From: Rhizobiaceae bacterium
Lineage (GTDB): Bacteria > Pseudomonadota > Alphaproteobacteria > Rhizobiales > Rhizobiaceae
Reading direction: 5' to 3'
DNA length: 64,000 bases
NCBI GenBank assembly: GCA_014238155.1
Contig: JABABQ010000063.1
Span: 153,920 to 217,919, forward strand
Positions 40,880 through 49,903 of the stretch are shown piece by piece; position 1 is the stretch's first letter, and each line of letters starts with the position of its first letter. A model generated the notes under the pieces. It did not search any database and was not told the origin of the DNA. It saw only the letters and a list, made by a program, of their open reading frames with translations. The position numbers were made by a program, and so were the translations under genes.

Positions 40880-41015
40880 GGACAAATCTTACCCTAGTTG
40901 CAGATCGAATAATGATGGTCTCAAGTCAGCGAGTCAACGCCGTAAATCTTGCTTCACAGAGCTTTGAAGCATTCTCGGACATGCCGCCCAAAAGCATTGG
41001 AAGCGGCCCCGATAC
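40880..41015 (+). repeat. 136-bp direct repeat, copy A (LysR 3'-end relic plus downstream sequence)
   Basis: colinear with 43663-43798 without net indel; last 46 bp identical. Confidence 0.9.
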
Positions 41016-41480
41016 TGTCCGACAATGTCGAGCACCTTGTCCACGAACAGCGGGTCAGTCGACAATTTGAACGTCTCGCTGCCATGTGGCTGAAGACCAA
41101 ACGCATTCCAAATCCGCCGGGTTTTAGTATGTGAAAGTCCGGTCTCGGCGGCCATCGACCGGATCAACCAATAGGTGGCGTCTTTCGGCGTGGAGTTCAA
41201 TGTGCACTCAATCACCTCGGCCACCTGATCATCCGTAACCGTACGCGTCCGGCTCGCACGATACTCATCGCTAGGCCCCTCGAAACCTGTCCGTCACAAA
41301 ACGACGCCTCCACTTGCCAGCCGTACGCTCATGCACACCAAGCCAGTAGGCAACTTCCTTGCTGGTCAATCGGTCGGCGCAAAAGCAAGATCCGGACCTT
41401 CGCCCGAAAAGAGGTCGTCCAAAACTGTGCTGCCAAGCTTGGATAAGTAATGATGCCGCAAAGATCGGTGGCCGTCACAT
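41016..41480 (-). pseudogene. IS630-type transposase relic, frameshifted and 3'-truncated
   Basis: minus-strand translation across frames: RAKVRILLL / CADRLTSKEVAYWLGVHERTAGKWRRRFV / DEYRASRTRTVTDDQVAEVIECTLNSTPKDATYWLIRSMAAETGLSHTKTRRIWNAFGLQPHGSETFKLSTDPLFVDKVLDIVGQY. Confidence 0.88.
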
Positions 41481-41795
41481 ATGGTTCTCCATAACAATTG
41501 CCAAGATTGTTGGATCGTTATTCACCGTCGTCAAAGCTTCAATTCAATCGTCCAGTAGTTGGATCAGAACTCGGCCTGAAAGAAACGGCATAAACCAATT
41601 GAGAATTTGCGAAATATTCCTTGTGGATGAATCAACAAAATTTCTATATTCCAATGGCTATCATGTATTATCGCTATCGGATTGATTTATTGTGAAAAAT
41701 TATTACAAATGGATATTTAAAATAATCACCAAAGAATAAAATATGAATTAGAAGTTCATCGCTAGCCGCGCGAAAATCTGCAAGTTCAGATCTAG

Positions 41796-43427
41796 ATGTT
41801 TACACATTTTTACATCGCCCACAGTGGCTGGAGAAGAAGTCAAACCATGATCAGATTATTATGTTGTGTGCTTACCTGGGCACTTCTGACGATCAATTTT
41901 CATTCACCGACCGCGGCACAGGTGGTTGAAAAAACCCCTGCCAATAATCCCAATCGTGAATTGGCCGCGGGTCTGTTTCAATTCGAACCCTACCTTTATC
42001 CCGAGACAGATGGCTTTACCACCCGGTGGACAGGGCTTGATTATGAGCTCTTGGAATTGATTTTTAAGAAATTGGGAGCTCATACTCGTTACGAGGAGAC
42101 CAGTTGGCTGGGCCAACTGGAAGCGGTTAAAGAAGGCGTTCAGGATTTTACCTTTGGCGTGTTCTATTCCGACGAGCGAGCCGAATACGGTCATTTCTCC
42201 ACACCTTACAGGCAGGAACACAATGTGGTCCTGGTGCGCAAAGGCACGTCGAACCGTTTTGACTTCAGTGATGCCTATGAATTGCGACAAATGATCCGAA
42301 ATCGCAAAATCAAACTCGGCATAATTGATGGTTGGATTACTGCGGACAAGCAACTCAATGAGTTGATCCAATCTGAGGAATTCAAGGATCAGTTTGTCAA
42401 GGAAGACAGCGATTTCAGCAATATGCAAAACCTGCTGAGTCGAAATGTAGACGGGGTTATTGCGGACCGACTGACAGCAGCCACATTCGCCTGGAAGCAG
42501 AATATTCAGGACAGGATTGAACAACATCCCGGTTTTTCCGAATCAGGCGATATCTATGTCTTGTTTTCCAAAAAAACTGTCGACCGATCGTTTGTCGACC
42601 GTTTCAATCGCGAACTTGTTGTTATCCAGCGCGAAGGCACCTATAGCGGGACGATGCACAAGTTTTTGTTGCCTGTCCTTTTGGGCATGACGATTGATAC
42701 TTCCTGGTTTTTTGTCATCACCGTTGTCGGCACCATCGCTTTTGCTCTCTCGGGCGTTCTTTTGGCCTTTAAGGAAAATTATTCGATATTTGGCGCGTTC
42801 GTTCTGGGTTTGTTGCCAGCCTTGGGCGGTGGTGTCATGCGTGATCTGGTTGTCAATCGAACACCACTCAATATTGTCGCGGAACCGATATTCTTATACA
42901 TCGTAATATTGACAGTTTTCTTCGGGTTTTTGACCGTATTTTTACTCAACGAAATTGCTGATCGCTATTTCGTTCCTCTCAAACGTCTCGCTGACCAACA
43001 CTTTACAATTTCTCTGGTGGTTTCGGATGCGATCGGTTTGGCCGCATTTACAATCAGCGGGGTATTTGTCGCCATTGAGGTCAACGTCCAGCCCGCTTGG
43101 CTGTGGGGCGGTGTCTTGGCCGTCCTGACATCAGCGGGTGGCGGCATATTGCGCGATGTTATACGTTCCGATCCAGATATTCCAACACTCAAGACACAGT
43201 TCTATCCGGAAATTGCGTTTATTTGGGGCAGCATCCTGACATATTTCCTGCATTCGGAGGTCGGCAATCTCGACCAGAACAACATTTTTCTTGGTGTAAT
43301 CCTCATTATCGTCGCTACTTTTTTCACCCGTTTGTTCGTCTATTACAAAGGCATTCCAAGTCCGTCATTCTCTGTTCTGTCAGCCCGCGTTGCACGCAAG
43401 CACAACAGTTCCGACGAATCCGATTAA
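41796..43427 (+). CDS. fusion protein: secreted SBP_bac_3 (amino-acid-binding-like) domain plus two TRIC/UPF0126 membrane repeats
   Basis: signal peptide, LDYELLELIFKKLGAHTRYEETSWLGQLEAVKEG...DFTFGVFYSDERAEYGHFSTPYRQEH (SBP), then GTIAFALSGVLLAFKENYSIFGAFVLGLLPALGGGVMRDLV and VVSDAIGLAAFTISGVFVAI...GGVLAVLTSAGGGILRDVIR (two TRIC repeats). Confidence 0.87.
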   Translation: MFTHFYIAHSGWRRSQTMIRLLCCVLTWALLTINFHSPTAAQVVEKTPANNPNRELAAGLFQFEPYLYPETDGFTTRWTGLDYELLELIFKKLGAHTRYEETSWLGQLEAVKEGVQDFTFGVFYSDERAEYGHFSTPYRQEHNVVLVRKGTSNRFDFSDAYELRQMIRNRKIKLGIIDGWITADKQLNELIQSEEFKDQFVKEDSDFSNMQNLLSRNVDGVIADRLTAATFAWKQNIQDRIEQHPGFSESGDIYVLFSKKTVDRSFVDRFNRELVVIQREGTYSGTMHKFLLPVLLGMTIDTSWFFVITVVGTIAFALSGVLLAFKENYSIFGAFVLGLLPALGGGVMRDLVVNRTPLNIVAEPIFLYIVILTVFFGFLTVFLLNEIADRYFVPLKRLADQHFTISLVVSDAIGLAAFTISGVFVAIEVNVQPAWLWGGVLAVLTSAGGGILRDVIRSDPDIPTLKTQFYPEIAFIWGSILTYFLHSEVGNLDQNNIFLGVILIIVATFFTRLFVYYKGIPSPSFSVLSARVARKHNSSDESD

Positions 43428-43662: not shown

Positions 43663-43798
43663 GGACAAATCTTACCCCAGTTGCAGATCGATTAATGATG
43701 ATCTGTTGGCACTGATTCAACGCCGGAACGCTTTCCTCAAAGTGTTTTGAAACATTCTCGGACATGCCGCCCAAAAGCATTGGAAGCGGCCCCGATAC
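43663..43798 (+). repeat. 136-bp direct repeat, copy B (3' end of intact lysR plus downstream sequence)
   Basis: matches 40880-41015; encodes GIGAASNAFGRHVRECFKTL* on the minus strand. Confidence 0.9.
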
Positions 43799-48758: not shown

Positions 48759-49903
48759 GTGAGTTCCAGCTGAATCGCGACTTTTCAACGTGGTTAGATT
48801 ACCGCCTTTGACGCCTTCCAGCCAATAATTTTTGACGGAACGATTCAGCGGGTGTTTTAAAGCCCAGACATTTCCTCGGGGTATTGTTGAGCTTGTCGCA
48901 AATATGCTTCAGGTCGGTGTCGCTTACAGACAATGGATCGACATCACGCGACAGCCATCTTCGGGCACGTCGATTGGTGTTTTCGACGGTTCCTTTCTGC
49001 CAGGGTGATTGCGGATCACAGAACCATGTCTGGCTCCCGGTTCCAGCCTGCAAGTATGCCCATTCAGTGAACTCTGTGCCACGATCAAATGTGACCGACC
49101 GGCGCGCCGTCCGGGGCAGGGTTCCTAACACATTCACCAATCCTTCCATAATTGGTTTGGAACGACGATCATTATTCTTCAACAGCACTGTAAAGCGGCT
49201 AACCCGCTCAACCAGTGACGTCATATTGCCGTTGCCAAACTTCTTACGAAACTGGATCAGATCACATTCCCAGTGCCCAAATTGCTTGCGTTCCCGCACC
49301 ACGTCAGGACGGTGCAAAATACTAAGCTCAGGGCTGAACCGGCGCCCGTAACGGCGTCTGGCCTGTCTTGGACGGCGTTTGCGGTGATGCTTCGGCAAGT
49401 GTCGCGACAACTTTTGTTCATGGCCATCACTTGAATAGACGTACCGATAGATCGTTTCATGACACACACGATGAAACCGACGCCGTTGGTGGCTTTGTTC
49501 GAGTTTTAAACGACCAGCAATCTGTTCAGGCGACCATCCGTGTTGCAACCGCTCAACAATTGCCTCTCGTAGACCGGCGTGCCGTTTCAACTTGCTCAGA
49601 TTATAGCGGCGGCGCTGAGCCATATCGTTAGCTGTCATACAGTAATAGCCGTCCCAAGATGGCATATCTGCATCTTCATATTTGTTCCGCTTCAGTTCAC
49701 GAAAGATCGTTGAACGATGCCGTCCAAGCTTTTCCGCAATTACATCAATGCTGACTTTTGCGGAGCGCCAACGTTCGATCTTGCGTCTTTCATCAAGATC
49801 AATGTGACTGTAAGTTTGCGAATAGGGGTGATTCACGCGAGATTCCTTCCATATGATAAGCCATTGTTATCATTGGAAAGTCGCACTTCAAAATAGAACG
49901 CAC
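48759..49903 (-). mobile_element. IS30-family insertion sequence (boundaries approximate)
   Basis: imperfect terminal inverted repeats gtgagttccag-ctgaatcgcgacttttcaacg / gtgcgttctattttgaagtgcgactttccaatg (right end reverse-complemented) flank the transposase ORF. Confidence 0.78.
48799..49836 (-). CDS. IS30 family transposase
   Basis: 345 aa; HTH YSHIDLDERRKIERWRSAKVSIDVIAEKLGRHRSTIFRELKRN; HWECDLIQ...; FDRGTEF; NTNRRARRWLSRD. Confidence 0.96.
   Translation of the reverse strand: MNHPYSQTYSHIDLDERRKIERWRSAKVSIDVIAEKLGRHRSTIFRELKRNKYEDADMPSWDGYYCMTANDMAQRRRYNLSKLKRHAGLREAIVERLQHGWSPEQIAGRLKLEQSHQRRRFHRVCHETIYRYVYSSDGHEQKLSRHLPKHHRKRRPRQARRRYGRRFSPELSILHRPDVVRERKQFGHWECDLIQFRKKFGNGNMTSLVERVSRFTVLLKNNDRRSKPIMEGLVNVLGTLPRTARRSVTFDRGTEFTEWAYLQAGTGSQTWFCDPQSPWQKGTVENTNRRARRWLSRDVDPLSVSDTDLKHICDKLNNTPRKCLGFKTPAESFRQKLLAGRRQRR

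Follow-up and report, generated by a model that had tools for sequence, protein, structure and literature searches.

Prokaryotic TRIC proteins of the UPF0126 family, among them CpTRIC, SaTRIC, SsTRIC, RsTRIC and the YadS/YicG type, are about 210 aa long and comprise two inverted three-helix repeats plus TM7, with a GGGxxRD signature in both repeats and a D-R-D-Y lock. The solved structures are outward-open and locked on the cytoplasmic side (PMC5401562, PMC5477506). The function of these proteins is under debate: structures and bilayer recordings present them as K+ channels, whereas glycine-use phenotypes present them as amino-acid transporters, UPF0126 genes having proved important in 11 bacteria for the use of glycine (PMC12173739). 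The window analysed here, a stretch of 64,000 nucleotides from a Rhizobiaceae bacterium, encodes a protein that has the same repeats, signatures and lock. Unlike the canonical members, it carries a solute-binding (SBP) domain, an extended TM3-TM4 loop, and a glutamate, Glu472, at a position where canonical TRICs mostly have Thr or Ser.

Architecture of the fusion protein

The original prediction, made from the DNA letters alone, described a 543-aa ORF joining a signal peptide, an SBP_bac_3 region and two TRIC repeats. This description is borne out by the reading of the frame, which is single and intact, and by the Pfam and PDB matches; the features and their coordinates are collected in Table 1. 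The true start is probably Met18 (window position 41847), which would give a protein of 526 aa, because GGAGAAGAAG precedes this codon and Met18 opens a Sec-type signal peptide, read from the sequence as MIRLLCCVLTWALLTINFHSPTAA-Q.

Table 1. Features of the fusion gene and its surroundings in the window.
Feature	Position	Strand	Basis
SBP_bac_3-TRIC fusion gene	41796..43427	+	543 aa as ORF; Pfam, GGAGAAGAAG upstream, signal peptide
Sec-type signal peptide (putative), residues 18-41	41847..41918	+	hydropathy peak at residues 17-35, A-x-A-like end
SBP_bac_3 solute-binding domain, residues 63-291, with R128 and D224	41982..42668	+	PF00497, E 1.6e-16; PDB profile matches
TRIC/UPF0126 repeat 1 (TM1-3), with GGGVMRD, R349 and D350	42714..42932	+	PF03458
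Extended TM3-TM4 loop, predicted cytoplasmic	42933..43019	+	longer span than in canonical TRICs; Lys/Arg-rich family-wide
TRIC/UPF0126 repeat 2 (TM4-6), with lock residues D411, R453, D454 and Y470	43020..43253	+	PF03458; alignment and PMC5477506
Glu472 codon, residue marking the SBP-associated TRIC clade	43209..43211	+	28/28 clade members, 0/52 canonical TRICs
Left copy of the 136-bp direct repeat on either side of the insert (copies 86% identical)	40880..41015		repeat comparison
Right copy of the direct repeat (136 bp), overlaps the LysR gene at its 3' end	43663..43798		repeat comparison
IS630-type transposase remnant (probable), in the left part of the insert	41016..41500 (approximate)	-	read from sequence

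The SBP_bac_3 region, expected at residues ~55-290, was recovered as a Pfam match well over the cut-off (60.7 bits against 26.4). The membrane part matches Gly_transporter/UPF0126 (PF03458) in two stretches with E 1.7e-29 and 102 bits (cut-off 23.5), and each repeat is also matched individually by this family. The predicted motifs ALGGGVMRDLV and SAGGGILRDVI were found in the repeats, the homology of which is indicated by an alignment score of 63 (shuffles -23 +/- 11, maximum 23). PDB sequence searches with the single sequence and with a 20-member profile agree in assigning the N-terminal part (residues ~62-291) to amino-acid SBPs (4zv1, 3hv1, 6h30) and the C-terminal part (residues ~304-529) to TRIC structures (5wuf, 5wuc, 5h35, 5wtr, 5h36). 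An AlphaFold model of the full protein had a mean pLDDT of 44.6 and is uninformative, since just six sequences entered the alignment.

Distribution, clade and origin

Fusions of the same kind are present in other genomes, which rules out a species-specific oddity, and their junction is common to independent relatives, which excludes both an assembly artefact and the chimera of two genes that had been raised as an alternative. Full-length relatives with the same domain order were found in G051 (39% identity), G268 and G298; the G051 protein is identical with a protein of Bauldia litoralis ATCC 35022. A further fusion, in G219, has an N-terminal part that Pfam does not recognize. In G345 (L033), an SBP-TRIC frame is broken by one in-frame TAG and represents either a decayed gene or an assembly error. 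A PF03458 survey of 289 genomes of Alphaproteobacteria returned many TRIC frames of 510-550 aa, and with profiles from the two halves of the protein, a further 16 proteins of 11 genomes were shown to hold SBP and TRIC in a single frame. The long TRIC frames L007, L010, L043, L066 and L069 were rejected as fusions, their N-terminal parts looking by eye like non-coding GC-rich read-through. The resulting alignment (A2) comprises 20 intact fusions from 15 alphaproteobacterial genomes, all with the same domain order and one common junction, at 28-37% identity to the window protein.

In a thin sampling of 399 genomes across Pseudomonadota, full-length fusions were confined to Alphaproteobacteria; everything else that matched at E <= 1e-30 was a stand-alone SBP. 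In this sample, no non-fused proteins come closer to the SBP domain than those from other classes of the phylum (L097-L104). The SBP halves of the fusions cluster apart from the sampled stand-alone SBPs with a support of 90. Searches of viral contigs and plasmids revealed no fusion, and a literature search found no paper describing the SBP-TRIC architecture. The abstract of Silverio and Saier 2011 reportedly mentions N- or C-terminal domains fused to TRIC relatives, and the architecture may therefore already have been noticed. The SBP-TRIC proteins constitute a widespread and, as it appears, undescribed alphaproteobacterial subfamily.

A second kind of binding protein stands in front of related TRIC domains. 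One TRIC protein (L035, in G165) carries an exported NMT1/THI5-type binding protein (Pfam NMT1, E 2.7e-37), and another (L089, in G629) was assigned to this type from its sequence, which is clearly similar on inspection. A maximum-likelihood tree places the TRIC domains of the SBP_bac_3 fusions, the NMT1 fusions and three proteins with no SBP domain (L003, L085, L092) on one side of a branch (100/98), apart from 26 canonical TRICs. The SBP_bac_3 fusions and the three SBP-less relatives group at 100/97, and a larger quick tree (80 rows, 52 of them canonical) is concordant. No SBP gene was found near the three SBP-less members. Their position in the tree fits a secondary loss of the SBP domain, because they are nested among the fusions. 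Glu472 is present in all 28 clade members, namely 23 proteins labelled SBP_bac_3 (interrupted, diverged and degenerate third-copy members included), the three SBP-less and the two NMT1 proteins, and in none of the 52 canonical TRICs. As the SBP-less members also carry it, Glu472 is a marker of the clade rather than of the SBP itself. The segment containing the TM3-TM4 loop has 32-41 residues in the SBP_bac_3 fusions, 40 in the SBP-less members and 24 in the NMT1 fusions; in canonical TRICs its length is 16-21. What the analysis adds to the original prediction is an entire subfamily, with binding proteins of two kinds and a gate signature of its own.

Tandem pairs of fusions were found in three genomes (L086 and L087 in G542 and G645, L084 in G590). 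Within the pairs, identity amounts to 62-72% for the SBP halves and 78-83% for the TRIC halves; between the orthologues of G542 and G645, the values are 87-89% and 84-91%, respectively. The sharing of several genes between these two genomes reflects their close kinship. G542 contains a third SBP-TRIC copy (L107, 1444-2925), which is 494 aa long and has diverged strongly; it is devoid of several lock residues, at the positions of D411, R453 and D454, and has retained Glu472.

In the window genome, which was searched for TRIC genes, the fusion is the only one found. The direct repeats of 136 bp bracket a 2.65-kb insert carrying the fusion gene. The transposase-like remnant in this insert is single-copy in the genome and has no Pfam match. 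In the nearest relative, G003, the site is empty: the asparaginase and LysR genes adjoin, at about 80% DNA identity. No fusion was detected in the 14 genus mates searched, some of which have canonical stand-alone TRICs instead. The empty site, the fusion-free genus mates and the repeat-bracketed insert with its remnant suggest that the gene was most likely acquired horizontally. An IS30-type transposase gene with HTH_38 and rve domains lies 5 kb downstream (window 48799-49836).

The protein had been proposed to work with no ABC ATPase or partner genes, and the surroundings agree with this. Across 24 loci, no partner family recurs beyond the common classes LysR and RND (three loci each), and Pfam revealed no ABC permease or ATPase in the window protein or in nine neighbouring genes. 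An attempt to derive a pathway from conserved gene neighbours was abandoned, as none recur.

Receptor, gate and candidate mechanisms

In the amino-acid SBP family, an Arg and an Asp hold the backbone of the ligand. Both residues, R128 and D224, are invariant in the fusions (20/20) and align in the PDB profile match with the residues that play this part in solved amino-acid SBPs, which argues for a ligand of the amino-acid type; the side-chain pocket points to no particular one. Glycine or another small neutral amino acid would be a first guess.

The residues of the pore are likewise retained. D99, R139, D140 and Y155 of SaTRIC correspond to D411, R453, D454 and Y470 (mapped to PMC5477506). None of these cytoplasmic lock residues varies among the 20 fusions, and R349 and D350 of the first repeat are invariant too. 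The glycine-rich GGxxRD kinks of TM2 and TM5 are present (G345/G346 with R349/D350), together with the D-R-D-Y lock. The plug motif of prokaryotic TRICs has been given as E(D/Q)XYA (PMC5401562). This motif, which belongs to the described members and is no requirement for Pfam membership, is modified here: Tyr470 is retained, the Glu position is altered, and Glu472 is new, two residues past the gate tyrosine. Hydropathy analysis shows clear TM1-5 and TM7 and a weak TM6. Counts of Lys plus Arg average 5.3 for the TM3-4 loop, 3.1 for the C-terminus and 2.2 for TM5-6, whereas TM4-5 and TM6-7 average 0.5 and 0.3. By the positive-inside rule, this distribution would place the N-terminus, and hence the SBP domain, in the periplasm, as predicted.

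The original prediction of a ligand-gated or receptor-coupled TRIC transporter can reasonably be inferred from these features. The favoured reading, to which roughly an even chance (about 0.5) may be given, is a self-contained, ATP-independent carrier for amino-acid uptake with a tethered SBP. The Sec signal peptide would export the N-terminal SBP_bac_3 domain, which a short linker would join to TM1 of the TRIC part, so that a TRIC trimer would bear three receptors. The receptor would close on an alpha-amino acid, with the carboxylate on R128 and the amino group on D224, and dock in its closed form at the outward-open periplasmic mouth of the pore. The two inverted triple-helix bundles would then alternate to let the amino acid through: as the mirror R349-D350 side closes, the lock on the cytoplasmic side (D411-R453-D454-Y470) would open. 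Glu472, beside Y470, could provide ion or proton coupling or alter the gate.

Of this scheme, the fold assignments, residue conservation, charge topology and the clade are observed, and the ligand class, docking, transport, coupling and trimer are proposed. In its favour, SBP and TRIC matches above the Pfam cut-offs are located in one chain, an arrangement kept in 20 intact fusions. The ligand-site residues R128 and D224, the charge pattern and the glycine-use phenotypes of UPF0126 genes count in the same direction. The solved TRICs appear suited to take substrate from a receptor, being outward-open and sealed inside, and the absence of recurrent partner genes backs a self-contained protein. 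Specificity seems to reside in the SBP, judging from the sharing of one TRIC clade by two unrelated binding-protein families and from the greater divergence of the SBP halves than of the TRIC halves in the tandem pairs; gene conversion of the TRIC half could be an alternative cause of the latter. Several observations count against a carrier. The authors of PMC5401562 doubt a metabolite role for TRICs; the glycine link is genetic and stems from UPF0126 genes outside the SBP-TRIC subfamily; and three clade members lack the SBP.

The K+ conduction that purified prokaryotic TRICs show in bilayers (PMC5477506, PMC5401562) counts against a carrier as well. It would suit an amino-acid-gated cation channel, in which the SBP, on closing around its ligand, would pull on TM1 and thereby open the TRIC pore to K+, similar to an ionotropic glutamate receptor with an unrelated pore. 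GluR0 offers a precedent for a cation pore gated by an SBP-type domain (PMC13099474), and the glycine kinks and lock residues of the pore are kept. The known TRIC gate is cytoplasmic, however, and distant from a periplasmic receptor, and the tandem copies with diverging SBPs and the two unrelated SBP families fit uptake equally or better. Such a channel, the main rival of the carrier, is considered unlikely. The same holds for its extended form, a trimeric amino-acid-gated cation channel that arose independently of ionotropic glutamate receptors, in which interchangeable SBPs of the amino-acid or NMT1/THI5 type would gate the TRIC pore.

The length of the TM3-4 loop, which exceeds that of canonical members, bears on a further possibility, a nutrient sensor. 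Its SBP would signal the ligand to a TRIC that mainly sets membrane potential or K+ balance, or would act through the extended cytoplasmic loop, and no ligand would be transported. A role in membrane potential has been suggested for prokaryotic TRICs (PMC5401562), and SBP domains are found in sensors such as BvgS, with 4q0c among the PDB profile matches. The loop is not strongly conserved in sequence, though, and neither an output domain nor a conserved partner gene was found, making a sensor decidedly unlikely. Finally, the periplasmic domain might sense an exported product and limit efflux; PMC5401562 cites a proposal of metabolite efflux through prokaryotic TRICs (Silverio and Saier 2011). 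This exporter is improbable: a periplasmic SBP with intact ligand residues is normally an uptake part, and the passage of PMC5401562 citing the proposal treats it as unverified.

Comparison with known systems

The SBP-TRIC subfamily could help to settle whether prokaryotic TRICs are channels or transporters. As the receptor is part of the same chain, its ligand could be sought by simple binding assays, and flux or gating could then be followed in the same protein.

Among amino-acid ABC importers with fused SBPs, GlnPQ (6h30) also has SBP_bac_3 ahead of the membrane domain in one chain. Its membrane part is an ATPase-driven ABC permease, whereas that of the fusion is a TRIC with no ATPase. The NMT1/THI5-TRIC fusions (L035, L089) have the related TRIC clade, Glu472 and an exported SBP in front in common with the SBP_bac_3 fusions, and differ from them in the SBP family and in a shorter TM3-4 loop.

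If the carrier reading is true, the fusions would resemble the TRAP and TTT secondary transporters in receptor-dependent, ATP-independent uptake, and a further kind of binding-protein-dependent uptake independent of ATP would stand beside these two. The membrane proteins of TRAP and TTT systems are unrelated to TRIC, and their SBPs are usually separate. No DctQ/DctM-type subunits of TRAP systems were detected in the window protein; its membrane part is PF03458, with no other Pfam match.

GluR0 likewise combines an SBP-like ligand-binding domain and a cation pore in one chain. There, a pore of the K+-channel type interrupts the binding domain, whereas Pfam finds in the fusion a complete SBP, followed by the TRIC repeats. 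If the channel reading holds instead, the SBP-TRIC proteins would provide a second, unrelated route to amino-acid-gated ion flux.
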